A DNA stretch of 23,522 bases from a virus, in IMG/VR virus record IMGVR_UViG_3300033141_000891, positions 1-23,522 of that record. One strand, given 5' to 3'. This document shows positions 8,648-23,522 of the stretch, one piece after another. The notes under the pieces were generated by a model. The model did not search any database and was not told where the DNA came from. It was given only the letters and a program-made list of their open reading frames with translations. The translations under genes were made by a program, and so were the position numbers. Each line of letters starts with the position of its first letter. Position 1 is the first letter of the stretch.

Positions 8648-9253
8648 TCAGATCACTAGGGCCGGTTTCTTGCCCTGCGACTCGTCCACGATGCGGTTGG
8701 CGGTCGCGCCCTGAGTCGCGCGGATCGCCGTCTTCTGTTCCTCAGTCAGCTTCACATCAGCGAGAATGGGCTGAACGGAGGTCGCAATGTTGCGAGCGGC
8801 CTTGCGGTTCTGTGCCGCGCGCAACAGCCCGACCACCAGACCGCCGCCAGCGGCCAGCAACGGACCCCACGGAACGGGAACAAGGGGCGCGGCTGACTGT
8901 ATGCCCGCGTCGATTACGTCGAGCGTGTCGGTCGCCTCGGCGAGCTTCGCGTTGAGTTCCGCCAGTTGGGGCTCCGCCTTCTCAAGAAACTCATTTGCAG
9001 CCTCAACCGTCTGATCCGCCACCACCTTCGCCTTCAGCAGCTTGTCCTTGAGTTCGCCATCGGGAAGCGAGTTGATCGCCTGCTCGATGTTCTCGCTCTG
9101 GGCCTGTGCCTTGCTAAGCGTATCCTTGACGACGGGGACCTGCTCTTTGAGCGTCCCGGCCGCCTGCTTCATCTTGGCGATCTGCTCGTCTGTGCATCCC
9201 GGCAAGACCAGCGCCGCTGCCAGCACGCTCACCCAAAAAGCCTTGCGTATCAT
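8648..9253 (-). CDS. Phage lipoprotein with coiled coil, possible spanin
   Basis: A 201-residue protein with an N-terminal lipoprotein signal: positive residues, a hydrophobic run and a lipobox ALVLPGC with the lipidated Cys at residue 20, followed by Thr, which fits outer-membrane sorting. Residues 25-115 are predicted helical coiled coil (LPDGELKDKLLKAKVVADQT, AELNAKLAEATDTLDVIDAG). A second hydrophobic stretch lies at about 126-146 (WGPLLAAGGGLVVGLL). A lipobox plus coiled coil plus membrane-like segment recalls spanins, which fuse the two host membranes during lysis, but the internal hydrophobic segment is unusual for an o-spanin. The ATG overlaps the stop of the 41-residue membrane gene. 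Alternative: a superinfection-exclusion lipoprotein. Confidence 0.75.
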   Translation of the reverse strand: MIRKAFWVSVLAAALVLPGCTDEQIAKMKQAAGTLKEQVPVVKDTLSKAQAQSENIEQAINSLPDGELKDKLLKAKVVADQTVEAANEFLEKAEPQLAELNAKLAEATDTLDVIDAGIQSAAPLVPVPWGPLLAAGGGLVVGLLRAAQNRKAARNIATSVQPILADVKLTEEQKTAIRATQGATANRIVDESQGKKPALVI

Positions 9254-9721: not shown

Positions 9722-10459
9722 TCAGCTTATCTGTCCGACATGGTTCGCCACACGGAACGGACCGCTGTGCGGCTGTCCCGTAACTGCGGGATCGCCGATG
9801 ACCTCGTGTTGCGGCGGCGTGAGCCAGAGGTACGCATTGGCGTAATCCGCGACGTAGTTATCCTGTGCCACCACCGGACAGCCCAACTTGAGTTTGCCGA
9901 GACCGTCGCGTTCGGTGTATATGTCGATGTCGTATCGACTGCCGATCATCGTCCGGTCGATCTTCAGGTGGCCACCGCCGTCATCGGCATCATCGCCTGT
10001 AGACCGTTGATAGTAAGTCTCGATGGTGTACCACTGATCCAGGGCCATCGCCGTGGAAGTCGCCACCGTCTGGAGCACGCTGTCATCGTTGAGCAGTTTC
10101 CATTCCACCGTCCGGTTCGGATTGACGTACAGATACCCTATCGGCATCTGACTGCTCGCTTCAAAGAACAGCGCAACCGTCGGCGCGCTCGGAGCCTCCA
10201 CGATCTTGAAATCCCACACGACGTAGAGCTTCCCGGCGGTCGCTATGGGCTCGGAGAATCCGTTTATCTGGCGAAACGCGGTCTTGCCGGCCTGCGTCGT
10301 CACCCGCCATGCGTGAAGGCCGCGACCGGGGCGACCGGGAACTTCGGGCGTGATAGTGGCAGGACTCGTAACGAACTCACTGGGCCAAGCGCCTTTGTCT
10401 TTTCCGTGTCCGCCGTCGAAGAACACGAGCTTTATGGGAGTCGGCACAGGCGTCTCCAT
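9722..10459 (-). CDS. Concanavalin-like virion protein
   Basis: About 245 residues. The start is uncertain: the ATG at 10459 has only a weak upstream site, whereas a GTG at 10447 has GGAG six bases before it. Either start overlaps the end of the PEP-CTERM gene. The body is a beta sandwich of the concanavalin/laminin-G type: LHAWRVTTQAGKTAFRQ, KLYVVWDFKIVEAP, QMPIGYLYVNPNRTVEWKLL, LDQWYTIETYYQRSTGD, and a closing aromatic strand with YANAYLWLTP. The W-Y-T-I-E strand after a D-Q turn is typical of this fold. No lyase or hydrolase catalytic set is apparent. It is likely an exposed head decoration or carbohydrate-binding protein; this is inferred from fold and position. Confidence 0.8.
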   Translation of the reverse strand: METPVPTPIKLVFFDGGHGKDKGAWPSEFVTSPATITPEVPGRPGRGLHAWRVTTQAGKTAFRQINGFSEPIATAGKLYVVWDFKIVEAPSAPTVALFFEASSQMPIGYLYVNPNRTVEWKLLNDDSVLQTVATSTAMALDQWYTIETYYQRSTGDDADDGGGHLKIDRTMIGSRYDIDIYTERDGLGKLKLGCPVVAQDNYVADYANAYLWLTPPQHEVIGDPAVTGQPHSGPFRVANHVGQIS

Positions 10460-11115
10460 CTTCTGCGACCCATGAGTCCCAAACCCATCATCAAGATGCA
10501 CGCGGTTGCGGGCTCGGGAATGGTCTGAGGACCGCGATCGTAGTCGTAGAGCGTCGTGGTTTCATCGTTCGCCGTGAATTCGCCCTGAGACGGAGATGCA
10601 AACAGGCGAACGTCTTCACCTCTATTGCTCAGCCGGATCACCGTGTCGAGGCGAATCCCTATCGGGACTTCGCTGACCCACCGGTCGTTCCAGATGTCGT
10701 CGGGGTTCGCCGGTGTCGGGTCCACGTGAAACTCGAACGTCCAGTAATCGTCCGGGTAGTATCCCGTGAGTGCCGTTGCAACGGTGTACTTCTTGCCGTC
10801 GTGCATGAACACGTCTGCTCCGCCGCGAGCGCCGTACCAGGGGTTGTCGGGATCGTCCCAGAGCCAGCCACCCCACCCCCCGGTTGTTGAGCGATCAATC
10901 GTGAACTTCGGCGAATCCAGGGCCACGGTCCCCAGTGTATTGTCCACAATGAGTCTGAACGCGGGTGCGAGGTAGCCCTGTTCGTTGGTCAGCTCCGCGC
11001 CGAGACCGTCCAGCTCGGCGGCGTCCATCCGGATGACCGGCTGGGCCTTCGCGCCTCCGCCCAGAGCCACACAGACTATCAATGTGCTTACCAACATTGC
11101 ACTCCTCTTGTGCAT
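10432..11115 (-). CDS. Secreted PEP-CTERM protein encoded in a phage operon
   Basis: A 227-residue protein with three sorting elements. Residues 1-25 are a Sec signal peptide (MHKRSAMLVSTLIVCVAL, then small residues ending AKA before Gln). The C-terminus carries a textbook PEP-CTERM tail: IPEPATAC at about 199-206, a hydrophobic span (ILMMGLGLMG) and the basic cluster RRRWRR. In bacteria this tail is recognised by exosortase in the inner membrane, and the cargo is usually sent to the cell surface or biofilm matrix. The central part is Trp-, Gly- and Asp-rich and not recognised. The ATG at 11115 has AAGGAG six bases upstream, set in a hairpin, and its own promoter lies upstream. The Arg-cluster coding region overlaps the start of the next gene. 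This looks like a host-derived accessory (moron) gene. Confidence 0.85.
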   Translation of the reverse strand: MHKRSAMLVSTLIVCVALGGGAKAQPVIRMDAAELDGLGAELTNEQGYLAPAFRLIVDNTLGTVALDSPKFTIDRSTTGGWGGWLWDDPDNPWYGARGGADVFMHDGKKYTVATALTGYYPDDYWTFEFHVDPTPANPDDIWNDRWVSEVPIGIRLDTVIRLSNRGEDVRLFASPSQGEFTANDETTTLYDYDRGPQTIPEPATACILMMGLGLMGRRRWRRLCRLP

Positions 11116-11122
11116 GGCATTC

Positions 11123-11164
11123 TCCTTTTGGTATGCGGGGTCTCCCCCAACTTGTCCAAAAGGA
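11123..11164 (-). promoter_or_regulatory. Hairpin covering the ribosome site of the PEP-CTERM gene
   Basis: On the minus strand TCCTTTTGG (11164-11156) can pair over nine bases with CCAAAAGGA (11131-11123), with an inner GGGG/CCCC stem and AGA loop. The 3' arm contains most of the Shine-Dalgarno sequence AAGGAG. The 5' arm starts at the last base of the promoter -10 box, so a transcript begun at this promoter would contain only the end of that arm. Confidence 0.6.
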
Positions 11165-11192
11165 TTATACCACGTAACATCTACGCTGGCGA
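11164..11192 (-). promoter_or_regulatory. Sigma70-type promoter for the PEP-CTERM gene
   Basis: A perfect -10 box TATAAT (11169-11164) is preceded by TGG, making an extended -10. A -35-like TCGCCA (11192-11187, four of six to the consensus) sits 17 bases upstream. The expected start is near 11157. It is the only perfect TATAAT I see in an intergenic stretch here, and it lies just before the gene most likely to be a late acquisition. Confidence 0.6.
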
Positions 11193-11801
11193 GTAAATAA
11201 CCGTTACTCCGTCGTCGGCGGTGCCCACCGCCACCTCGACAAGCTTCAGATCCCCGCCCTCAAGGCGAATCGAATTGCCGGGCGCAAGCACCTGTGCGTA
11301 TTGGTTGTTTCCCGCGCTGACGTAGATATCGCTGGTGTTGCCAGTGGGATCGTCGTTCGCATCCGCGCCGGGCTTCTTGGCCTGGATGATCGCCCAGTTG
11401 AAGGGGGTCGAATTCTCTGCTATGGCCTCGGCATTCGCGCCGCCCACAGCACTCACGCCCTTGCCCGTGCTGGCCAGGGTCTTTCTCTCGCCCGAGGCCA
11501 CGAACTCGCCGCATTCGACGTTGACCGTGGCCGTTCCGCCCGTGGGGCACACGAAGTCCAGCCACGAGGCGTCCGGACCCACCACCATCACCTCGTTGGG
11601 GTAGATCACGTTCGCGCTCATCGCCCGCAACTCCGATTCAGTCCCGGCAAAGCCGGTCACGACCGTCTTGGTCGCGTCGTAGCGGAACGCCACCAACGAC
11701 GCGCCCTCGTTGCGGAGGGTGTATCTCTTACGGGAGTCCGGGAGGGACACCCGTTGCGGAGTCGCCGTCACTGAAATCGTATTCAGTCCCTTGATAGCCA
11801 T
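11181..11801 (-). CDS. Beta-rich virion protein with possible internal duplication
   Basis: A 206-residue protein starting MAIKGLNTISVTATPQRVSL. Two halves look alike in layout: residues 20-100 (KRYTLRNEGASLVAFRYDAT, PNEVMVVGPDASWLDFV, GTATVNVE) and residues 130-206 (NWAIIQAKK, SDIYVSAGNN, VLAPGNSIRLEGGDLKLVEV, DDGVTVIYSPA). Each has a strand pair, a Pro-Gly or Pro-Asn turn and a closing V-x-V strand. This two-domain beta arrangement resembles small capsid decoration proteins. No named family is recognised. It sits between the adaptor and the PEP-CTERM gene, and its stop lies within the promoter of that gene. Its ATG is 15 bases after the adaptor stop. Confidence 0.75.
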   Translation of the reverse strand: MAIKGLNTISVTATPQRVSLPDSRKRYTLRNEGASLVAFRYDATKTVVTGFAGTESELRAMSANVIYPNEVMVVGPDASWLDFVCPTGGTATVNVECGEFVASGERKTLASTGKGVSAVGGANAEAIAENSTPFNWAIIQAKKPGADANDDPTGNTSDIYVSAGNNQYAQVLAPGNSIRLEGGDLKLVEVAVGTADDGVTVIYSPA

Positions 11802-11816
11802 TTACCACTCCTCTTG

Positions 11817-12743
11817 TCAGTGCCCCAAGTAGGTTGCAGTACCGGGGTCTCGCTCGACCACGTCGCTGTCGCTCGGGGTAGCGCCGTGTATCTTCGGCCT
11901 GTTACGGTTGTCCCTCGCGACGCTCCGAGGCAGATAGATCTTCTCGTAAAGCGTCGCGTGATTGCCGTCCATGTCGCCCTTGTGGTGCTCCCAGATGGTC
12001 AAACCTGCTTCCACGATGGTCAGACTGTGCTGTCCCCCGCCGAGCGGATAATCCGTGTCGTTGCTCATCGCGTCGGCCTCAAACCTGTACTTGACCAGCG
12101 ACGGATAGAGCCCGCTGGGATAAGGCCAGACGAGCAGATCCCATCGTTGACCGGTCGCGGCCACAAACTCGCGGGGGATGACGTCGTAGTATCGCGGCCA
12201 TCCGGGCATCTCCGAGCTGCGATAGATTCGCTCCCGAATCCATTCCTCGGGACGCCGCTTAAGCCGTGGCTGAGATATGTTGTCCATGACGACCGGATCG
12301 TCCAAGGTCGCGGCAAAATCGTCGGGAAGGACGTAAATGCCCGTCGTGGTGATCGTGAAGGTGTCCCCGTCGTCCGCTGAGGCGTCGGCGGTTACGGTGA
12401 TGGTCTTGGCGTCGGTATAACCGACTATCGTGTAGGAATTGCCGCTGGTATCGGCCACGATCGTTCTGCCCACCATCGAGGCATAGAACGTGTCAACGGC
12501 AACCGTGAGCGTCTTGTTGCCCTCGCCTCCCGCTGTCACCGCGCCGGTCTGCGTCGTCGGCCACAGAGTTACCGTGGCGGTCTTGGCGATGAACGTCCAG
12601 TCGTGGTCCGACAGAAACTTCAGATAGCCGTCGTTGGCGAGCTGCTTGGCCTCCGTGGTCTGGTCCGCACCGGGGCTCTGAGGGGCGGACTGGTCCCGTA
12701 TCCGCTCGTAGATCCCCTTGAATGTCAGTATGTTCGCCGCCAT
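11817..12743 (-). CDS. Head-tail adaptor / connector protein
   Basis: A 308-residue protein. The N-terminus (LTFKGIYERIRDQ, then QLANDGYLKFLSDHDWTFIA) followed later by GIYVLPDDFAATLDDP matches the general pattern of phage head-tail connector or adaptor proteins: a helical segment with an aspartate-tryptophan pair, a strand, then a Y-x-LP-DDF strand. Between these, residues about 65-130 form an inserted beta domain (TLTVAVDTFYASMVGRTIV, TVTADASADDGDTFTI). The C-terminal part is helical (HSLTIVEAGLTIWEHHKGDM). It should bind below the portal and receive the tail. The start has GAGG nine to ten bases upstream, right after the strong hairpin at 12755-12797. The name is a pattern-based call. Confidence 0.7.
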   Translation of the reverse strand: MAANILTFKGIYERIRDQSAPQSPGADQTTEAKQLANDGYLKFLSDHDWTFIAKTATVTLWPTTQTGAVTAGGEGNKTLTVAVDTFYASMVGRTIVADTSGNSYTIVGYTDAKTITVTADASADDGDTFTITTTGIYVLPDDFAATLDDPVVMDNISQPRLKRRPEEWIRERIYRSSEMPGWPRYYDVIPREFVAATGQRWDLLVWPYPSGLYPSLVKYRFEADAMSNDTDYPLGGGQHSLTIVEAGLTIWEHHKGDMDGNHATLYEKIYLPRSVARDNRNRPKIHGATPSDSDVVERDPGTATYLGH

Positions 12744-13628: not shown

Positions 13629-14711
13629 CTACGCAGCGGCCACGTAGTCAATCCGCCCGCACTTGCGGCGGTTACGGCAGACGAAGTTGAACTTGTTGTC
13701 CACGTCCGTCTTGATTACGCGGTGCTGGTTGGGCAGACGGGTGGGCTGATTCTCTCGCATGAACTCGCCCTTCTGGAAGACCGGAACCCAGACGTCGTGG
13801 TTCAGGGCGATGAGCGGATTACTCGAAAGGCTGTCCAGCTCCTCCTCCCATATCCACGCGATCCCCTTGGTCACAACCGAACCGGCGAACTTGCCGAGGT
13901 CGGCTCCCAGGTTGTCGTTGTTCGCCCGCGCCTTCTTCTCCGACGCCTCCAACAACGTCTCGCCGCAATACAGGCGGATGTTGTCAAACTTTCCGCTCTC
14001 GAACTGCTTGGCGTTGATCGGACCCTTGAACCGCAGCCTGCGGAGCATCCGGGTGATCTTGACCACGTCGTCATCCGTGATCTCCGCGTTGGCGTTCGTC
14101 CAAACGTCGTTGTAGTTGCGCCAGCGTGCGTACTTCGCGGCGCTCGCATCAACTCCGTAGCAGTCCGTAAAGCCGGTGGGGTTCATGCCCTGGAACCCGC
14201 ACGTAGCCGCCGTTACCTGCGCCCCGGTGATCGGGACGACGGCATAAGGAACGCCGTACGGGTTGTCCTCATCGTCCGTCGAGTCCGGGGCGAGCCACGC
14301 GCGCTTCTCCAGCTTGTTGGCGATGTCAATAGCACAGTCCGTGCGACGGATGCGCTGAAGCCTCTGAAGCTGGACGGAGCTGCCTGAGTTCTCCTCGATC
14401 TCGTCCTGAGTGATGACGTGGTGACTTGAGCACAGCCGCCAGGGGGCCTTGAGCTTTCCCACGACGTCCTTGATCTCGTACGTCTTCGGGGTCATCGGCT
14501 GCATGAACCGGGCGAAGCCGCTCTCGTCGATCATCACTTCCCACTGAATCTGCGTGCCTCCCTGGATCTCCATCCGGTCCTTTGCGAACCACTGATTCAT
14601 GACCGGATAGTCGTGGTGGGTCTGGAGCACCTCCAGCTTGTTCCGCCAGGGGAATGCACTGAGGGTGGCCAGCCACAGGTCCAGAGTCTCGTCTGACCAA
14701 AGCTTCAACAT
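13629..14711 (-). CDS. Major capsid protein
   Basis: A 360-residue protein placed after the scaffold gene, as major capsid genes usually are. The length suits an HK97-fold capsid subunit. Features include a helical N-terminus (LKLWSDETLDLWLATLSAF), a region resembling the E-loop and spine with PKTYEIKDVVGKLKAPWR, and a stretch MNPTGFTDCYGVD...RWRNYNDVW followed by a long helix DDDVVKITRMLRRLRF, a pattern I associate with phage capsid proteins. The end is mixed with RVIKTDVDNKFNFVCRNR. The start ATG has GGGAG about nine bases upstream. A 90-base gap follows with only a weak hairpin; no clear terminator or promoter is visible there. Confidence 0.8.
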   Translation of the reverse strand: MLKLWSDETLDLWLATLSAFPWRNKLEVLQTHHDYPVMNQWFAKDRMEIQGGTQIQWEVMIDESGFARFMQPMTPKTYEIKDVVGKLKAPWRLCSSHHVITQDEIEENSGSSVQLQRLQRIRRTDCAIDIANKLEKRAWLAPDSTDDEDNPYGVPYAVVPITGAQVTAATCGFQGMNPTGFTDCYGVDASAAKYARWRNYNDVWTNANAEITDDDVVKITRMLRRLRFKGPINAKQFESGKFDNIRLYCGETLLEASEKKARANNDNLGADLGKFAGSVVTKGIAWIWEEELDSLSSNPLIALNHDVWVPVFQKGEFMRENQPTRLPNQHRVIKTDVDNKFNFVCRNRRKCGRIDYVAAA

Positions 14712-16079: not shown

Positions 16080-16400
16080 CTATAACTCCGTAAGACCTCT
16101 CCGCTTGAGAAAGGCCCTACGGTTATTTCCGGGGACATGGGCGTTCCCCTCGCTGTCGAAACGCACGCCCAGGTCCGCATATTCTCGATTCGCTTCCTCG
16201 ACCTGGTCGGGCATCACACCGGCGTTGACCGACTCCCAATCGGGCAGATCGCCCTGCCTCATGTGCCCCTGCTCCGTGCGGAAGTCCCGCCGCATGTTTC
16301 GCCCGCACGAGCATCGACGCCGCGCGGGTCTCCGGCTGCTCGGGCAGGTCAGTTCCACCCGTTTGCCGCACTTGTCGCAGATGTAGCAGTAGGTCGGCAT
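16080..16400 (-). CDS. FmdB-like zinc-ribbon protein
   Basis: A 106-residue protein. The N-terminus MPTYCYICDKCGKRVEL, followed by RRRCSCGRNMRRDF at about residues 27-40, gives two CxxC pairs. The opening MPTY and this spacing match the FmdB/CxxC zinc-ribbon family of small regulatory or nucleic-acid-binding proteins, which are often seen in phage genomes near terminase and portal genes. The rest (residues 45-106) is charged and unrecognised. It ends a run of four small genes after the portal, just before a terminator. The start is two bases after the previous stop. Its biological role in phages is not known. Confidence 0.8.
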   Translation of the reverse strand: MPTYCYICDKCGKRVELTCPSSRRPARRRCSCGRNMRRDFRTEQGHMRQGDLPDWESVNAGVMPDQVEEANREYADLGVRFDSEGNAHVPGNNRRAFLKRRGLTEL

Positions 16401-16842: not shown

Positions 16843-17001
16843 TCAACGACCTCCCGCCAGTTTTCTCATCGCTCGACGTCGCTTGCTCATCTCGACAGCG
16901 TAGAGCTGCTTCTGTGCATCGGCCCGCGTCTTGGGCTTCTTGCTCAGGTGTCTGCCCGATTCGCTCGTGGCCTTGTATCCGCCTGGAACCTTCTTGATCA
17001 T
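16843..17001 (-). CDS. Small MIKKV-type phage protein (52 aa)
   Basis: A 52-residue gene that overlaps the portal stop by ATGA and ends one base before the next ATG. The product starts MIKKVPGGYKATSESGRHLS and continues with SKKPKTRADAQKQLYAVEMS. This matches the recurrent small phage protein type that reads M-I-K-K-V-x-G-G-Y-x-(hydrophobic)-x-S-x-x-G-(K/R)-x-L and then a helical Lys-rich tail, usually near head genes. That resemblance is from memory, not from a search. Function unknown. A longer gene in another frame over the same stretch is an artefact. Confidence 0.75.
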   Translation of the reverse strand: MIKKVPGGYKATSESGRHLSKKPKTRADAQKQLYAVEMSKRRRAMRKLAGGR

Positions 17002-18719
17002 CGCGCCGCCCCCCCTGCTGCACCTGCGCCGACTGCCTGCGCGCCCATGCTCTCAATGGGAAGGGGCGGCTGTCTGCCCGAGGTCACGCGAGGCCCGCCC
17101 TCGCCGGAAGCTCTGCCCTGCGGAGTACCCATCATCGCCGGATTCTCAAGCGGTTCGCTCTCCTCCCACAGATCGTCAATCTCGGGAAGGTCCAGGTCTC
17201 GTCCCGTGGCATTGGCCAACACATCGACATTGAGCCGCGAGCCCTGCTGTGCGGCGAGCGGCGCGATAGGCAGTACCACCCGCTCCATCCAGTTCATCAC
17301 CCGCTCGTACTGGTCCTCGGGTGAGTCGGATTGCCGGGAGTAGGCACTGAGAGAGAACTCGAAGTTATCGAACTGCCCCACCCTGACATCCGGGCTCCAC
17401 TGCATCGGCAGTTCGACCCCCCCGGGGAGCCTCTGCGTGAGTCTGAGAGAAAGCTTGGGATCGTGCCAGATATACCATCCGAGCTTCTGACAGACGTTCT
17501 CGACCAGTTCGGTCACGAACCCCCGCATGTCGTTGACACGAACGGAAGCCTTGGAAAGCTCTATCTGCGACTGCCCGAGGGTCTTCTCGTTCGCGCGGAG
17601 CCCCCCGACGATCTCGGTGTTGCCCGAGATGCGGTTGAGCCAGTCGTGGAACCACGCGACCGCGGCATACCCCTTCTCGTTGCCTCCGCCCAGACTGTGG
17701 GCCTGTACCCCGTTAGAGTCACTGACCTGAATGACCTCCCCGTCGTGAACCTTGCGGACGGTCTCAGCGTCCTCCGAATTGGGCGGCACGGTAACGAAAT
17801 CCTTCTGCTGCTGAGCCTGCCGTCCGATCTTGCGGGCAAGCTCGTTCTCCAACAGGTAGAGATCGTAGATCACCGCGTACAGCGGCACGGGCACGGGGTT
17901 CTCGTTCAGCCAGGAGTACCCCAGTACGTCGATGGGACCGTCCTCATGACCGCGCCACCCGAACTCGCGGATGTAATGCGTGTGTTCCCTCAGGTCGCCG
18001 GCAAGCCACACCACCGAGTTGCGTCGCGGGATGTACAACTCGCAAAGCTCGATCTGCGGATCGAACTCATCCAGGCTGTACTCCTTCTTGCCGGTTGCGA
18101 TCTCGTCGGCCTTGCCCGAGTGGTCCTGGGTCTGCCGTTTCAATAGGTCTTCGAGCAGACCCCTCTGGGCCTGGTTGAACAGTCCGCTCTCCATCGCCAC
18201 CTCGAAGGGCATCCTGAAGCGATGTCCCTCGTAGGCGTAGCTGCCCGGCTTGCGGGTCCTGGTGCGATGGTCGATGATGTAGTCGTCCAGACTGATCGCC
18301 TCGACGAACAGCCCGAACTTGCCCCCGGTGGCGAAGCCCGTCTTCACAATCCCCATCGACCCGAACGAGTCGCGTATGGCCTCCCGGATGCTCCACGCAG
18401 CCTTGATCTTCCTCGCCACGTGGTTGACCGTGAGTCTGAGACTGTCGGCAAAGTAACTGGCCTCGGGATCGTAGCTCGTCACGCCCGTCTTGACCCTCCG
18501 AAGCGCGAGCAGGGGCTCAAGGATGCACCCGACCGAGTACATGAGGTTCAGCGGCATCTTCGTGCTGATCTCGCTGTTGTCACCGTAGTGACGGCCTGCG
18601 AAGTGCTTCATGAACTCCGCACGCTTCTTACGGAAGCCCTCGAGCTTCTTATCGCTGATCGCCGCTGAGCGGGCCAGCTTCGCCGCATCAGACGTCTTGT
18701 CGGTGATCGCAGTTACCAT
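16998..18719 (-). CDS. Portal protein
   Basis: A 573-residue protein located after the terminase and before the scaffold and capsid genes, the standard portal position. It forms the dodecameric ring through which DNA is packaged. Features: a basic helical N-terminus (KKLEGFRKKRAEFMKHFAGR) with the FAGRHYGDN stretch typical of portals, a long helix-rich core (ENELARKIGRQAQQQKDF), a C-terminal helix-strand segment (LRANEKTLGQSQIELSKA, DMRGFVTELVENVCQKLG) and a Pro/Gly/Ala-rich tail. Length is normal for portals. ATG overlaps the stop of the gene before by one base (TGATG), and its stop overlaps the next ATG. Confidence 0.88.
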   Translation of the reverse strand: MVTAITDKTSDAAKLARSAAISDKKLEGFRKKRAEFMKHFAGRHYGDNSEISTKMPLNLMYSVGCILEPLLALRRVKTGVTSYDPEASYFADSLRLTVNHVARKIKAAWSIREAIRDSFGSMGIVKTGFATGGKFGLFVEAISLDDYIIDHRTRTRKPGSYAYEGHRFRMPFEVAMESGLFNQAQRGLLEDLLKRQTQDHSGKADEIATGKKEYSLDEFDPQIELCELYIPRRNSVVWLAGDLREHTHYIREFGWRGHEDGPIDVLGYSWLNENPVPVPLYAVIYDLYLLENELARKIGRQAQQQKDFVTVPPNSEDAETVRKVHDGEVIQVSDSNGVQAHSLGGGNEKGYAAVAWFHDWLNRISGNTEIVGGLRANEKTLGQSQIELSKASVRVNDMRGFVTELVENVCQKLGWYIWHDPKLSLRLTQRLPGGVELPMQWSPDVRVGQFDNFEFSLSAYSRQSDSPEDQYERVMNWMERVVLPIAPLAAQQGSRLNVDVLANATGRDLDLPEIDDLWEESEPLENPAMMGTPQGRASGEGGPRVTSGRQPPLPIESMGAQAVGAGAAGGAAR

Positions 18720-19129: not shown

Positions 19130-19394
19130 CGTCGTTCTCTCCTGTCTGAACCGCTTCTTTGACTGGAACCGTGTGCGGCTGCTTGAGCCAGCACGCCATA
19201 CGAACCACTACGCCTTCACCCTTGACGACTATGTGCCACTCAACGGCTCGAAGCTCCCGAATCTGGAAGACGGTCAAGCCGTGGTTGCAGAAGAACGTCA
19301 AGAGGTCCATCACCGCCCTGGTCACCGCCATGTCGGGCGTAGAACCGAAGCCCTGAACCAAGACGCGATCAAATGTCTTGCTCGGGCCTACCAT
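19122..19394 (-). CDS. Small hypothetical protein (90 aa)
   Basis: A 90-residue protein with the ATG at 19394 overlapping the end of the nuclease-type terminase gene (ATGGTAG). It starts MVGPSKTFDRVLVQGFGSTP and has strand-like stretches VEWHIVVKGEGVVVRMACWL. It is placed between terminase and portal. No motif is recognised. A longer frame reaching back to 19727 lies inside the terminase gene and is not supported. Confidence 0.65.
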   Translation of the reverse strand: MVGPSKTFDRVLVQGFGSTPDMAVTRAVMDLLTFFCNHGLTVFQIRELRAVEWHIVVKGEGVVVRMACWLKQPHTVPVKEAVQTGENDDG

Positions 19395-20449
19395 TGCCTC
19401 TCCCTCTCTCGAACCCTCTGTCTCTCGCGCGCACGGTACGCATAGGAAGTCGGATCGGGCTCCTTCGCCACGGGCTTCTTGAACAGCGGCGAGTCGATGC
19501 ACGCGCGGTATGCCAGCGCACAGGCGACGACGTAATCGCCATGCCGCTTGCGAATCTCCATCGGCGCGCTGCTGAGGCTCGCCAGCGTGATTCGCCCGAG
19601 ATCGTCGTAGAGATATTGCTGATGCTGATCCAGACAGCGAACGGAACGCAGGATCGTCTCGGCGTGCTGAATCGCGTCGATCCACTTGCCGAACAGGTTC
19701 TCGTCGCTCGATTCCCCCCCGCCCCATCCGAGCCGGTTGACCGGCGTCTCGGCCACCGTGAGCTGCTTCTTGGACCGCCAGATGTAGCTGTAGCCCGCGT
19801 CAACCATCGCCCGCAGCGTGGTGACGCCGTGGAGCTTGTTAACCGGGCAGATGAGGGCGTTGTTGAAGTACTTCGCAACCTTGACGGCCAGCCGTCCGAG
19901 TTCAGCCGGTTGAATGGTGTTCGATCCGAACTCCGCGGCCTGCTCGCGCCCCGCGACGGCGAAGACCTCGATCGTGCTGTCCGACTCCCCTACGCCCGCA
20001 CCGATGTCCATCCCGATGGCGAAGGACCGCTCAATGGTCTCGATCTCGCCTGGAAGGCTCACGGGCTGATCCCTGGGGTCGATGAATACCAGGACCGGCC
20101 CGTCGTCCATCCGGACCAGCTCGTCGTTCTCATCGAGGCCCATGCGGTAGAGCGGCTCTCCCAGGTGCGTCCGCTGGACGGCGAGCCATTCGTTCTCGAA
20201 GACCGGACGGCCGCTCTGTGCGGTCCAGTCCAGCTCCATCTCCTTCTGCCACTTCCAGGACGCCTTCCACGAACCGTCGTGTTCAGTAGTGCATCCATGC
20301 CGTCTGCGCTCGCGGGCGAGGACCTCCGGCGTGAACGCCTCGGGATCGGCGGAGTAGTGGAGGTTGACTACCACGATGTCCCGGCGGGTCGGTCGTGCCG
20401 TCACGCCCGGCATTATCACCCTCGGCCTGTCGATCCTGGTCCCGCTCAT
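19388..20449 (-). CDS. terL: Terminase large subunit, nuclease part (split gene)
   Basis: A 353-residue protein starting MSGTRIDRPRVI at the ATG that overlaps the stop of the ATPase part (ATGA). The linker region includes VVVNLHYSADPEAFTPE and the strand SGRPVFENEWL. The RNase H-like nuclease fold follows: RSFAIGMDIGAGVGESDST gives the first catalytic Asp (D148) and a second acid (D157), and RKRHGDYVVACALAYRA gives the terminal Asp (D305). The middle strand ALICPVNKLHG lacks an obvious acidic residue where many terminases have Glu. It cuts concatemeric DNA during packaging. Together with the ATPase gene it gives about 574 residues, normal for an intact TerL. Confidence 0.85.
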   Translation of the reverse strand: MSGTRIDRPRVIMPGVTARPTRRDIVVVNLHYSADPEAFTPEVLARERRRHGCTTEHDGSWKASWKWQKEMELDWTAQSGRPVFENEWLAVQRTHLGEPLYRMGLDENDELVRMDDGPVLVFIDPRDQPVSLPGEIETIERSFAIGMDIGAGVGESDSTIEVFAVAGREQAAEFGSNTIQPAELGRLAVKVAKYFNNALICPVNKLHGVTTLRAMVDAGYSYIWRSKKQLTVAETPVNRLGWGGGESSDENLFGKWIDAIQHAETILRSVRCLDQHQQYLYDDLGRITLASLSSAPMEIRKRHGDYVVACALAYRACIDSPLFKKPVAKEPDPTSYAYRARERQRVRERERQW

Positions 20450-21111
20450 TGTCCGGGGTCCGGTAGATCGTTGGCGATCCGCATGGAGCATCCGCCGTCC
20501 TTGAGGTCGGGCGTCGTGATCCCGAGCCACCAGCCGTGCCTGATCGACGCGACGGACGCCACGAGTGCATCCTCGAACTCGTCCTGAAAGGCGGTCTCGT
20601 CCGTTACCATCCCCGAGACCGTGTGACTGCGTATCTTGTCGCCCCCCTGAGCGATGGGTGTGATGGATGAGTTCCGCCTGGGAAACGTGATCTCCTCGGA
20701 GAGGATCTCGATGTCGCCGTCCTGCAACACCCAGTCGCGGTACGGAATGTGGTTGAGTATGAACTTCGTGCGTCCGAGCAGTCCGTCGCCCGTGAACTCG
20801 TTGCCCACCACGTCGATCAATCGCTTGGACTGCTGATAGATCAATCGTCCCTGATGGAACAGCGGATCCCACGCCGAGAGCATCGCCGCCCACCAGGTCA
20901 CAACCATCTGTCTCGACTTGGGCACGAACATCATGCGGTTGCCCTGCCAGATCCGCGTCAAAGCGATGATGTGAGGCTTGTGCGCGGGAAAGGGCTTGAC
21001 CGGGTGCTCCTCGTCGTGCTGATCCAGCGTGAAGACAAACCAGCGCGCAAAGTACAAGGGATCCCGCCGTGCGAGTTCCCATCGCGCCTGTACTATTTCG
21101 CGCTCGCTCAT
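20446..21111 (-). CDS. terL: Terminase large subunit, ATPase part (split gene)
   Basis: A 221-residue protein carrying the packaging-motor ATPase. The region before the P-loop is aromatic (FARWFVFTLDQHDEEHPVKP). The Walker A-like loop is MFVPKSRQMVVTWW (residues about 61-74), the variant used by TerL proteins with SRQ instead of the classical GK(S/T). Walker B with catalytic Glu is GMVTDETAF (D171, E172). The coupling motif GITTP is at about 197-201. The ORF ends 20 residues after that motif, in the linker to the nuclease, where TGA overlaps the ATG of the nuclease gene. The start overlaps the stop of the small subunit (ATGA). Confidence 0.88.
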   Translation of the reverse strand: MSEREIVQARWELARRDPLYFARWFVFTLDQHDEEHPVKPFPAHKPHIIALTRIWQGNRMMFVPKSRQMVVTWWAAMLSAWDPLFHQGRLIYQQSKRLIDVVGNEFTGDGLLGRTKFILNHIPYRDWVLQDGDIEILSEEITFPRRNSSITPIAQGGDKIRSHTVSGMVTDETAFQDEFEDALVASVASIRHGWWLGITTPDLKDGGCSMRIANDLPDPGQ

Positions 21112-21701
21112 TCACTGTCCGTCTCGTTCAGAAAGCCGTCGTCAACCCCCGCCGCGTGCGCCCTGCGTGTCAGCTCCTCGTCGCTCAGGTTCGAGGGGTC
21201 CAGCCCGCCGATGCTCCCGCTGTGCTGGTGCTTCTCGGTTACCATGCCTATCACGCGAGCCAGTTCCTTCAACGCGTCGATGCGGCTGTAGGTCCTCAGC
21301 GTCCTTTCCCCGGTCTTCGGGTTGAGCTTGACTTGGTGGACCAGGGAGGTGTTCAGTCCCCTCTCACGCAATTGCTCAAGATTCTCCTCCCCGGCCAGGT
21401 ACTTCTCGAAATCCGCCACGTCCTCGTCGAACGCTATCTCCAACAGGGCGATCTTGATCCTCTCGGGAGTCAGGCCGTGCGTGGGCAGAAGCTCAGCGAT
21501 AGCCGCCTTGATCGCAGGTTTTCTAAGGTTCTCGGTCGCTATCGAATACGCCGAATCCTCGCTGTAACCTGCAAGACGTGCGGCCTTTGCCCCGTTGAAC
21601 TTCGCGTCGGTGAGATAGTGGAGCACGAACTGCTGTTGCTTGGTGGTCAGCGACTCGTATGCCGACTTACCGTCCGTGGATTGTGGCGTTTCGTCTTCCA
21701 T
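21108..21701 (-). CDS. terS: Terminase small subunit
   Basis: A 197-residue protein with the DNA-binding helix-turn-helix pattern of the Terminase_2 type: LTTKQQQFVLHYLTDAKFNG and AAKARLAGYS-like segments at about residues 18-60 (AARLAGYSEDSAYSIATENL, with the Ala-x-x-AGYS turn), then a helical oligomerisation region. It recognises the packaging site and recruits the large subunit. An in-frame stop lies eight codons upstream, which fixes the first ATG; the ribosome site is a G-run immediately before the start and is weak. Its stop overlaps the large subunit ATG. The C-terminal 40 residues are charged and polar. Confidence 0.9.
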   Translation of the reverse strand: MEDETPQSTDGKSAYESLTTKQQQFVLHYLTDAKFNGAKAARLAGYSEDSAYSIATENLRKPAIKAAIAELLPTHGLTPERIKIALLEIAFDEDVADFEKYLAGEENLEQLRERGLNTSLVHQVKLNPKTGERTLRTYSRIDALKELARVIGMVTEKHQHSGSIGGLDPSNLSDEELTRRAHAAGVDDGFLNETDSE

Positions 21702-22178: not shown

Positions 22179-23159
22179 CTAATCTCTCCACTGATACCCA
22201 TGCTCCCGCAACTGTCCCTTGAACCATGCAATGAACTTGGCCATCGGGTTTCGCACATCGGGACGGCCGCGAATGCGCTCAGCTTTCCCGTAGCAGCCTT
22301 GAGCTGCGGTCACCGGTGGCCCAAGGTGTCCCTCACAGACATGCCCTGCGATGATCTCGAAACTCGTCTGATCGGCGGAGTGTTGCTGGCGGGTCTTGTC
22401 CTTCGCCGAGTAGTCAAGGGCGAGCTTGATCCGCTGGATCACCGCCTGCGGGTTGACGCGTTGCCCGCTCGAATTCGAAACCGAATCGGCCTGCCCCCCC
22501 TCCTTGGTCGAGACCGAGACTGCCTCCGTCTCTGCCTCGCCGGTTTGTTCGTCGGGAGTCTCCGTGGAGATAACGGGCTTCGGCTTCGGCTCTGCCTCTG
22601 GCTCTGGCTTCGGCTTCGGCTTCGGCTTCGGCTTCGGCTTCGGCTTCGGCTTCGGCTTCGGCTTCGGCTCTGGAGACACAACGTCCACAGAACCTTCCGG
22701 GTCTGGTTGCTTTGTGGGCGTTGTCCTGGAGGTTTTGTGGGGTTTTCGTGGTCTGCCGGAAGTGCCGCATCGGGCAGGACTTCCGTCATACCAAGTCAGT
22801 CCGGCGCGGTCGAGATACTCCCGCCAATTATTGTCGGCGTGGTCCTTCACGTCATGGACTACGAGTCGGTATTTTCTGTGTTTGTCCACGAACCCGCACT
22901 TGATAAGCACCGCAATCAGCTCGTCGGCGTCCCAGTTGTAGCCAATCCCCTGGCAGATGACCTCGTTGGGCCACTTGCCGATGTCGCCCTGAATCGCAAA
23001 CTTCGCGCACCACTGCCAGAGGCTTTCCATGATCCCAATGGCCATGAGCCTCCCGGATATTCCCGATGGTACTCCAAGACTCGGTTGCGAAGCCCGGATG
23101 CGGTCGAGTTCCGCCGCGAGCATCAGCATCTTCGGGTGATCTATCGCAGTGCGTTTCAT
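22179..23159 (-). CDS. Replisome-organiser-like protein with Lys-Pro repeat
   Basis: A 326-residue protein starting at the ATG (23159) that overlaps the resolvase stop (ATGA). Residues 1-120 resemble the N-terminal winged-helix region of phage replisome organisers: the opening KRTAIDHPKMLMLAAELDRI, then ESLWQWCAKFAIQGDIGKWP, the LIAVLIKCGFVD helix and the strand YRLVVHDVKDHADN. Residues about 162-195 are a Lys-Pro and Glu-Pro dipeptide run, encoded by the hexanucleotide repeat at 22576-22671. The C-terminal 70 residues are another helical domain (NPMAKFIAWFKGQLREHGYQ). Proteins with this layout bind the phage origin and load the helicase. The family call rests on sequence pattern only. Confidence 0.7.
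   Translation of the reverse strand: MKRTAIDHPKMLMLAAELDRIRASQPSLGVPSGISGRLMAIGIMESLWQWCAKFAIQGDIGKWPNEVICQGIGYNWDADELIAVLIKCGFVDKHRKYRLVVHDVKDHADNNWREYLDRAGLTWYDGSPARCGTSGRPRKPHKTSRTTPTKQPDPEGSVDVVSPEPKPKPKPKPKPKPKPKPKPKPEPEAEPKPKPVISTETPDEQTGEAETEAVSVSTKEGGQADSVSNSSGQRVNPQAVIQRIKLALDYSAKDKTRQQHSADQTSFEIIAGHVCEGHLGPPVTAAQGCYGKAERIRGRPDVRNPMAKFIAWFKGQLREHGYQWRD
22576..22671. repeat. Hexanucleotide tandem repeat GGCTTC
   Basis: Sixteen units of six bases, of which ten (22606-22665) are perfect copies of GGCTTC on the plus strand. It encodes the Lys-Pro dipeptide run of the replisome-organiser-like protein. Units outside the perfect block differ by one or two bases and encode Glu-Pro or Ala. 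Perfect repetition of a six-base unit keeps the reading frame when copy number changes, so length may vary between isolates. Confidence 0.95.
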
Positions 23160-23522
23160 GATGCGAGCTCCTTCTCGTCTGCGCTGAACAGCGTGTCCTG
23201 GGGAACCTGAATCTCTACCTCCACGCCCTCCTTGCCCTTCTCGGCGTAGCGCTTGGCGAGCCTGCCGTCCACGACGTGACAATCATCCACCCACATGCCG
23301 ACGTTGGTCAGAGCGTCGAGCAGCGCCTTGTCGAGGTTATCGACGTCGGGCCTGCTCGTCGGGAACCGGGGCGCGGAGGGCTTCAACCGATGCGAGTTTC
23401 CGCCGGTTCCATAGTGCGACTTCGGACGGGGCAAGAGGAAAACGCGAGTGACCCGCACGGGACCGGCTATGGGCTCCTCCAGCACATGACCGAGCGCAGC
23501 GCAGGCGATCTCCGTCTTCCAG
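23156..23522 (-). CDS. rusA: RusA-type Holliday junction resolvase, 5' end outside window
   Basis: The frame is open through the right edge, so the gene begins beyond it; an internal GTG at 23485 is not the true start because the in-frame sequence before it (WKTEIACAALGHV) fits the family. The 121 visible residues contain the strand RVTRVFLLPRPKSHYG, then the catalytic region RPDVDNLDKALLDAL and the acid pair VDDCHVVDGRLAKRY. These are the D-x-D and D-D elements and the conserved Lys of RusA. The enzyme cuts Holliday junctions and resolves branched replication intermediates before packaging. The stop overlaps the next ATG. Confidence 0.85.
   Translation of the reverse strand, partial: WKTEIACAALGHVLEEPIAGPVRVTRVFLLPRPKSHYGTGGNSHRLKPSAPRFPTSRPDVDNLDKALLDALTNVGMWVDDCHVVDGRLAKRYAEKGKEGVEVEIQVPQDTLFSADEKELAS

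Follow-up and report, generated by a model that had tools for sequence, protein, structure and literature searches.

A PEP-CTERM gene among the late genes of a tailed phage, and predicted exosortase-substrate genes in other viral contigs

The window analyzed here is the whole of a 23,522-nucleotide stretch of viral DNA, which is the entire IMG/VR record IMGVR_UViG_3300033141_000891 and is classed as linear. Its minus strand carries genes for a terminase small subunit, TerS (21108-21701; PF03592, E 6e-19; phrog_51), a terminase large subunit, TerL (19388-21111), which is split across two frames and was assigned by phrog_2 and by tblastn to an annotated TerL, a portal protein (16998-18719), a major capsid protein, MCP (13629-14711), and an adaptor or head-completion-like protein (11817-12743); profile searches show that a RusA resolvase is also encoded on the record. 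Nothing in named phages matches the capsid-like and portal-like genes, and the portal and MCP were named from position and synteny and the adaptor by position. Profile-guided scans found 24 relatives of the capsid protein in IMG/VR, and a further 6 lie on genome contigs. The portal (about 25-31% identity over about 530 aa), the MCP and the adaptor (by tblastn to L118, L119, L130, L144 and others) are all conserved in many of the capsid relatives, and the portal-MCP-adaptor synteny is common to about 20 related phages. Judged by TerS, TerL, RusA and this synteny, the record is a tailed phage. An earlier note on this DNA had taken the operon to be phage-derived and named a chromosomal origin as what would refute it; a chromosomal, non-phage operon is ruled out by the presence on the same record of the packaging genes TerS and TerL together with RusA, portal and MCP.

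The TerL reading frame is broken near 20446, by either a sequencing error or a frameshift, and relatives such as L118 apparently have one long ORF. Elsewhere on the minus strand, an ORF at 22179-23282 is replication-initiation-like (phrog_9474, E 2e-6) and contains a long Pro-Lys repeat, and an FmdB-like zinc-ribbon protein is weakly matched between the capsid and portal genes (16080-16400; phrog_1076, E 0.007; PF09723 below cut-off).

Downstream of the portal, capsid and adaptor genes, in the late region, lies a minus-strand gene for a 227-aa protein at 10432-11115, the coordinates given for it in the earlier note. A Shine-Dalgarno sequence, AAGGAG (11122-11127, minus strand), stands 6 nt 5' of its ATG by sequence reading. 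The product is MHKRSAMLVSTLIVCVALGGGAKA|QPV... ...TIPEPATACILMMGLGLMGRRRWRRLCRLP, and its C-terminal end is IPEPATACILMMGLGLMGRRRWRRLCRLP. Residues 1-24 (11044-11115, minus strand) form a predicted Sec signal peptide with n-, h- and c-regions and an AKA|Q cleavage site, as judged solely by reading the sequence and by a rule-based scan with a shuffle control. At the other end, a PEP triplet, a hydrophobic span and an RRRWRR cluster (10450-10524, minus strand) make up a PEP-CTERM sorting signal. Searching the protein against the PEP-CTERM models, as had been proposed, gave scores over both curated cut-offs: PF07589 matched residues 198-222 with 29.4 bits (E 7.6e-7; gathering cut-off 20.7), and TIGR02595 matched with 18.3 bits against a cut-off of 16. 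A six-frame PF07589 search of the whole record gave 32.1 bits (E 4.4e-9). As a control we applied a rule that combines a signal peptide, a C-terminal hydrophobic span and a basic tail; this gene was the sole ORF picked in the window, 20 shuffled versions of the window yielded none, and 470 kb of loci from related phages yielded one doubtful ORF. From the curated-model scores, the rule with its shuffle control and the AAGGAG site we conclude that the predicted product has a genuine PEP-CTERM signal at the position first noted, so that both the signal peptide and the PEP, hydrophobic span and RRRWRR tail described from the letters were read correctly. Surface anchoring of the protein is predicted.

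The PEP-CTERM gene is co-cistronic with a gene for a 245-aa protein beginning METPVPTPIK... (9722-10459, minus strand), whose ATG at 10459 lies 28 nt inside it. Just 5' of the PEP-CTERM gene is a promoter-like site, TCGCCA-17-TATAAT with an extended TG (11192-11164, minus strand), the sole site in the window with 10/12 sigma-70-like matches, and 3' of the 245-aa gene a terminator-like 12-bp stem with a T tract (9662-9631, minus strand) closes the pair; both are consensus matches only, and the sigma factors of this organism may differ from consensus. With its good Shine-Dalgarno sequence, its overlap and these promoter-like and terminator-like flanks, the pair looks like a moron-like two-gene cassette. 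No relative of the 245-aa partner was found in IMG/VR. The gene upstream of the cassette, for a 206-aa protein (11181-11801, minus strand), and the 245-aa gene gave no virion-family match in profile searches, nor do they match any other family. The location had been described as between two virion-type genes; the late-region position downstream of capsid and adaptor genes bears this out in part, but flanking by two virion genes is only probable because both immediate neighbors are without a family match.

A second predicted envelope protein is encoded near the cassette (8648-9253, minus strand); its 201 aa include a lipobox-like signal, VLPGC|T, and, further along, a hydrophobic span.

A late-region site close to this lipoprotein-like gene, whose product has a second hydrophobic span, as in a two-part lysis system, would suit a spanin- or holin-like lysis or envelope-disrupting protein whose C-terminal span merely resembles PEP-CTERM. 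We consider this very unlikely, given model scores that exceed the curated cut-offs, a large passenger unlike spanins or holins, and no PHROG lysis match. A further reading is that host DNA entered a phage contig by chimeric assembly or a binning error. The record is a single metagenome fragment, and no second copy of the locus was found in IMG/VR or in genome contigs; against that, the PEP-CTERM gene has the strand and composition of its neighbors and overlaps the 245-aa gene by 28 nt, phage genes are present in the rest of the record, and like arrangements occur elsewhere, for example on contig L103, making a chimera extremely improbable.

The passenger, that is, the portion of roughly 170 aa that would be delivered, has no homologue in INPHARED phages, in IMG/VR or in genome contigs. 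Homologues in other phages, which the earlier note had suggested looking for, are thus absent for this passenger in the databases searched, but other viral contigs do carry PEP-CTERM proteins. A single-sequence AlphaFold prediction of the passenger had a pLDDT of 33 and gave no usable fold. Two weak passenger matches were seen in 392 Planctomycetota genomes; the better covered a C-terminal part only, in a 557-aa protein, and on inspection neither was a relative.

We looked for the host by capsid alignment against 84,980 species genomes. Six loci were found, five on Planctomycetota-named contigs (GWF2_50_10, Bythopirellula, Phycisphaerae, Sedimentisphaerales and Phycisphaerales) and one in an unclassified MAG (L144), with portal homology at all six and adaptor homology at five. 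Exosortase (PF09721) is present in four of the six genomes and PEP-CTERM proteins in five; in the unclassified genome neither was found. In one candidate host class, that of one of the capsid-bearing genomes, exosortase was present in 147 of 150 genomes. The host is therefore probably a Planctomycetota bacterium, an assignment made at phylum level only because the capsids are 26-31% identical. The exosortase-bearing host foreseen in the earlier note is likely at the level of these genomes and that class. The phage record itself encodes no exosortase.

PEP-CTERM genes are not confined to this phage. Two exact-pattern scans of IMG/VR, with a pattern that takes only PEPAT with chosen codons, gave 112 raw matches with 37 kept loci (in 36 records) and 71 raw matches with 24 kept, a kept locus being one with an ORF-terminal PEP-CTERM-like tail. 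About 60 viral contigs were found in this way, a count that is neither a rate nor complete because of the narrow pattern and because most raw matches were dropped for having no ORF-terminal PEP-CTERM. The PF07589 cut-off was passed by 31 of the 36 first-scan records, and 16 of the 36 matched the TerL profile phrog_2. The passengers fall into families common to several contigs (of 17, 6, 6 and 3 members, with several pairs), some members being identical copies from related samples; two of these families were tried against isolated phages and gave no match. On several contigs the gene lies directly beside packaging genes: between TerL (phrog_38, E 1e-32) and portal (phrog_21, E 6e-54) on L103, before TerL and portal on L052, and before TerL on L062, L014, L005 and L150. 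On L181 a different passenger, whose tail scores 19.4, slightly below the Pfam cut-off, is followed by a related portal (phrog_21, E 6e-65). The earlier description of PEP-CTERM genes as normally chromosomal therefore needs correcting, and phage PEP-CTERM is more general than the single gene first noted. Exosortase was found in 0 of the 36 PEP-CTERM-bearing viral records, most of which are fragments, and so viruses seem, on predicted gene content, to bring exosortase substrates and not the enzyme.

The PEP-CTERM passengers at L103:8866-9990, which has HAF repeats, and L181:846-1889 are unrelated and occupy the same slot before the portal in related phages, which suggests repeated acquisition of PEP-CTERM genes at one site. 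On two other contigs the stop codon of the PEP-CTERM gene contains the start of a gene for a large protein (L009:4321-6315, minus strand; L111:11721-13802, plus strand); the two large proteins have similar N-termini, and neither has a family match over cut-off.

These comparisons bear on whether the gene is a host PEP-CTERM gene captured as passenger cargo, functionless for the phage. Chance capture is plausible since Planctomycetota genomes hold many PEP-CTERM genes, and in the phage pair L074/L103 the GC3 of the PEP-CTERM gene, 0.62, is below that of neighboring ORFs. No PEP-CTERM gene was found in related phages: PF07589 had no match in 23 MCP-related viral records, many of them fragments and, at only about 30% MCP identity, none of them close relatives. 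This absence would suit cargo and also fits an accessory gene. In the window, by contrast, the PEP-CTERM gene has a GC content of 0.605, and its codon usage and GC are inside the range of the correctly framed phage genes (the codon table leaves out the scaffold-like and 245-aa genes), so that it does not look freshly acquired. Its ORF is intact, with a good Shine-Dalgarno sequence and an overlapping downstream gene, and PEP-CTERM genes occur as families common to many viral contigs. Taken with these points, functionless cargo appears unlikely.

In the exosortase model (PMC1569441, PMC12188702), Sec exports a protein whose C-terminal span keeps it in the inner membrane until exosortase cleaves it, after which it reaches the surface or matrix. 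Applied to the 227-aa protein, the signal peptide read in its sequence would direct it through Sec, and its tail, whose hydrophobic span and Arg cluster are likewise read in the sequence, would anchor it in the inner membrane so that PEP faces the periplasm. The host exosortase may then cut at the PEP-CTERM signal and pass the passenger to the host surface or matrix, where it could alter the surface to the benefit of the phage, with superinfection exclusion, or some other form of lysogenic conversion, as the likeliest outcome. The earlier note had raised possible effects on adhesion, matrix or superinfection; these, like surface display itself, stay at the level of inference here.

The bor and lom genes of lambda are lysogenic-conversion morons, that is, late-region envelope genes. 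By analogy with late-region envelope morons such as these, we favor surface remodeling, whether as superinfection exclusion or lysogenic conversion, as the most likely use of the gene. The chief alternatives are that the gene is neutral cargo or that it acts in matrix or adhesion. In the second case, the exosortase route would build or decorate matrix or release the passenger, aiding virion dispersal or host aggregation and not superinfection exclusion. Passages of PMC12188702 and of PMC12642866 (citing Gao et al. 2018) describe known PEP-CTERM proteins as acting in matrix, floc formation and adhesion, and several PEP-CTERM proteins of other viral contigs partially resemble the flocculation-associated protein floc_PepA beyond the C-terminus, all below cut-off; the window passenger, however, resembles it over the C-terminal signal only, and a matrix role is in our judgment a minority prospect. 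Returning to surface remodeling, we see about an even chance that a tailed phage of Planctomycetota has, in a moron-type late-region cassette, a gene for a secreted protein that makes use of the host exosortase for this purpose. Recurrence in other phages, together with the lack of exosortase in the 36 records, fits a phage strategy of supplying the substrate only. The broader proposal, which could equally well prove right or wrong, is that phages of exosortase-bearing bacteria commonly encode exosortase substrates, that these genes have been acquired repeatedly and retained next to those for terminase or portal, and that the host exosortase serves to display the products on infected cells or lysogens.

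PEP-CTERM/exosortase sorting is widespread among environmental bacteria, and for the majority of its substrates no role is known. If phages provide substrates of their own, the exosortase pathway would be a viral route to reshape the host surface and matrix, and the phage substrates would offer a way to probe the purpose of exosortase surface delivery. A PEP-CTERM gene in an uncultivated phage would also be a clue to an exosortase-bearing host. PEP-CTERM proteins and morons are each known, and the two seem not to have been described together in phages in the literature searched, of which coverage was partial: no description of phage-encoded PEP-CTERM substrates was found there.

As predicted from the DNA, the window gene would share with lambda bor and lom and like morons the character of an accessory late-region envelope or surface gene with promoter-like and terminator-like flanks, and would differ in using a C-terminal exosortase signal in place of a lipobox or beta-barrel. 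Likeness to floc_PepA (NF033554), a flocculation-associated PEP-CTERM protein, is partial and extends beyond the C-terminus in other viral PEP-CTERM proteins, whereas all viral matches fall below the 80-bit cut-off and the window protein matches at the C-terminal signal only. The founding paper on PEP-CTERM sorting by exosortase (EpsH, Xrt; Haft et al. 2006, PMC1569441), in which the word 'phage' is absent, describes the same signal peptide and the same kind of tail, with PEP near the C-terminus, a hydrophobic span and a basic cluster. An orphan passenger domain is likewise shared with that system, and the genomes of the likely hosts hold exosortase genes and many for PEP-CTERM proteins; the difference from it is that here, in a record without exosortase, the predicted substrate comes from the late region of a phage.
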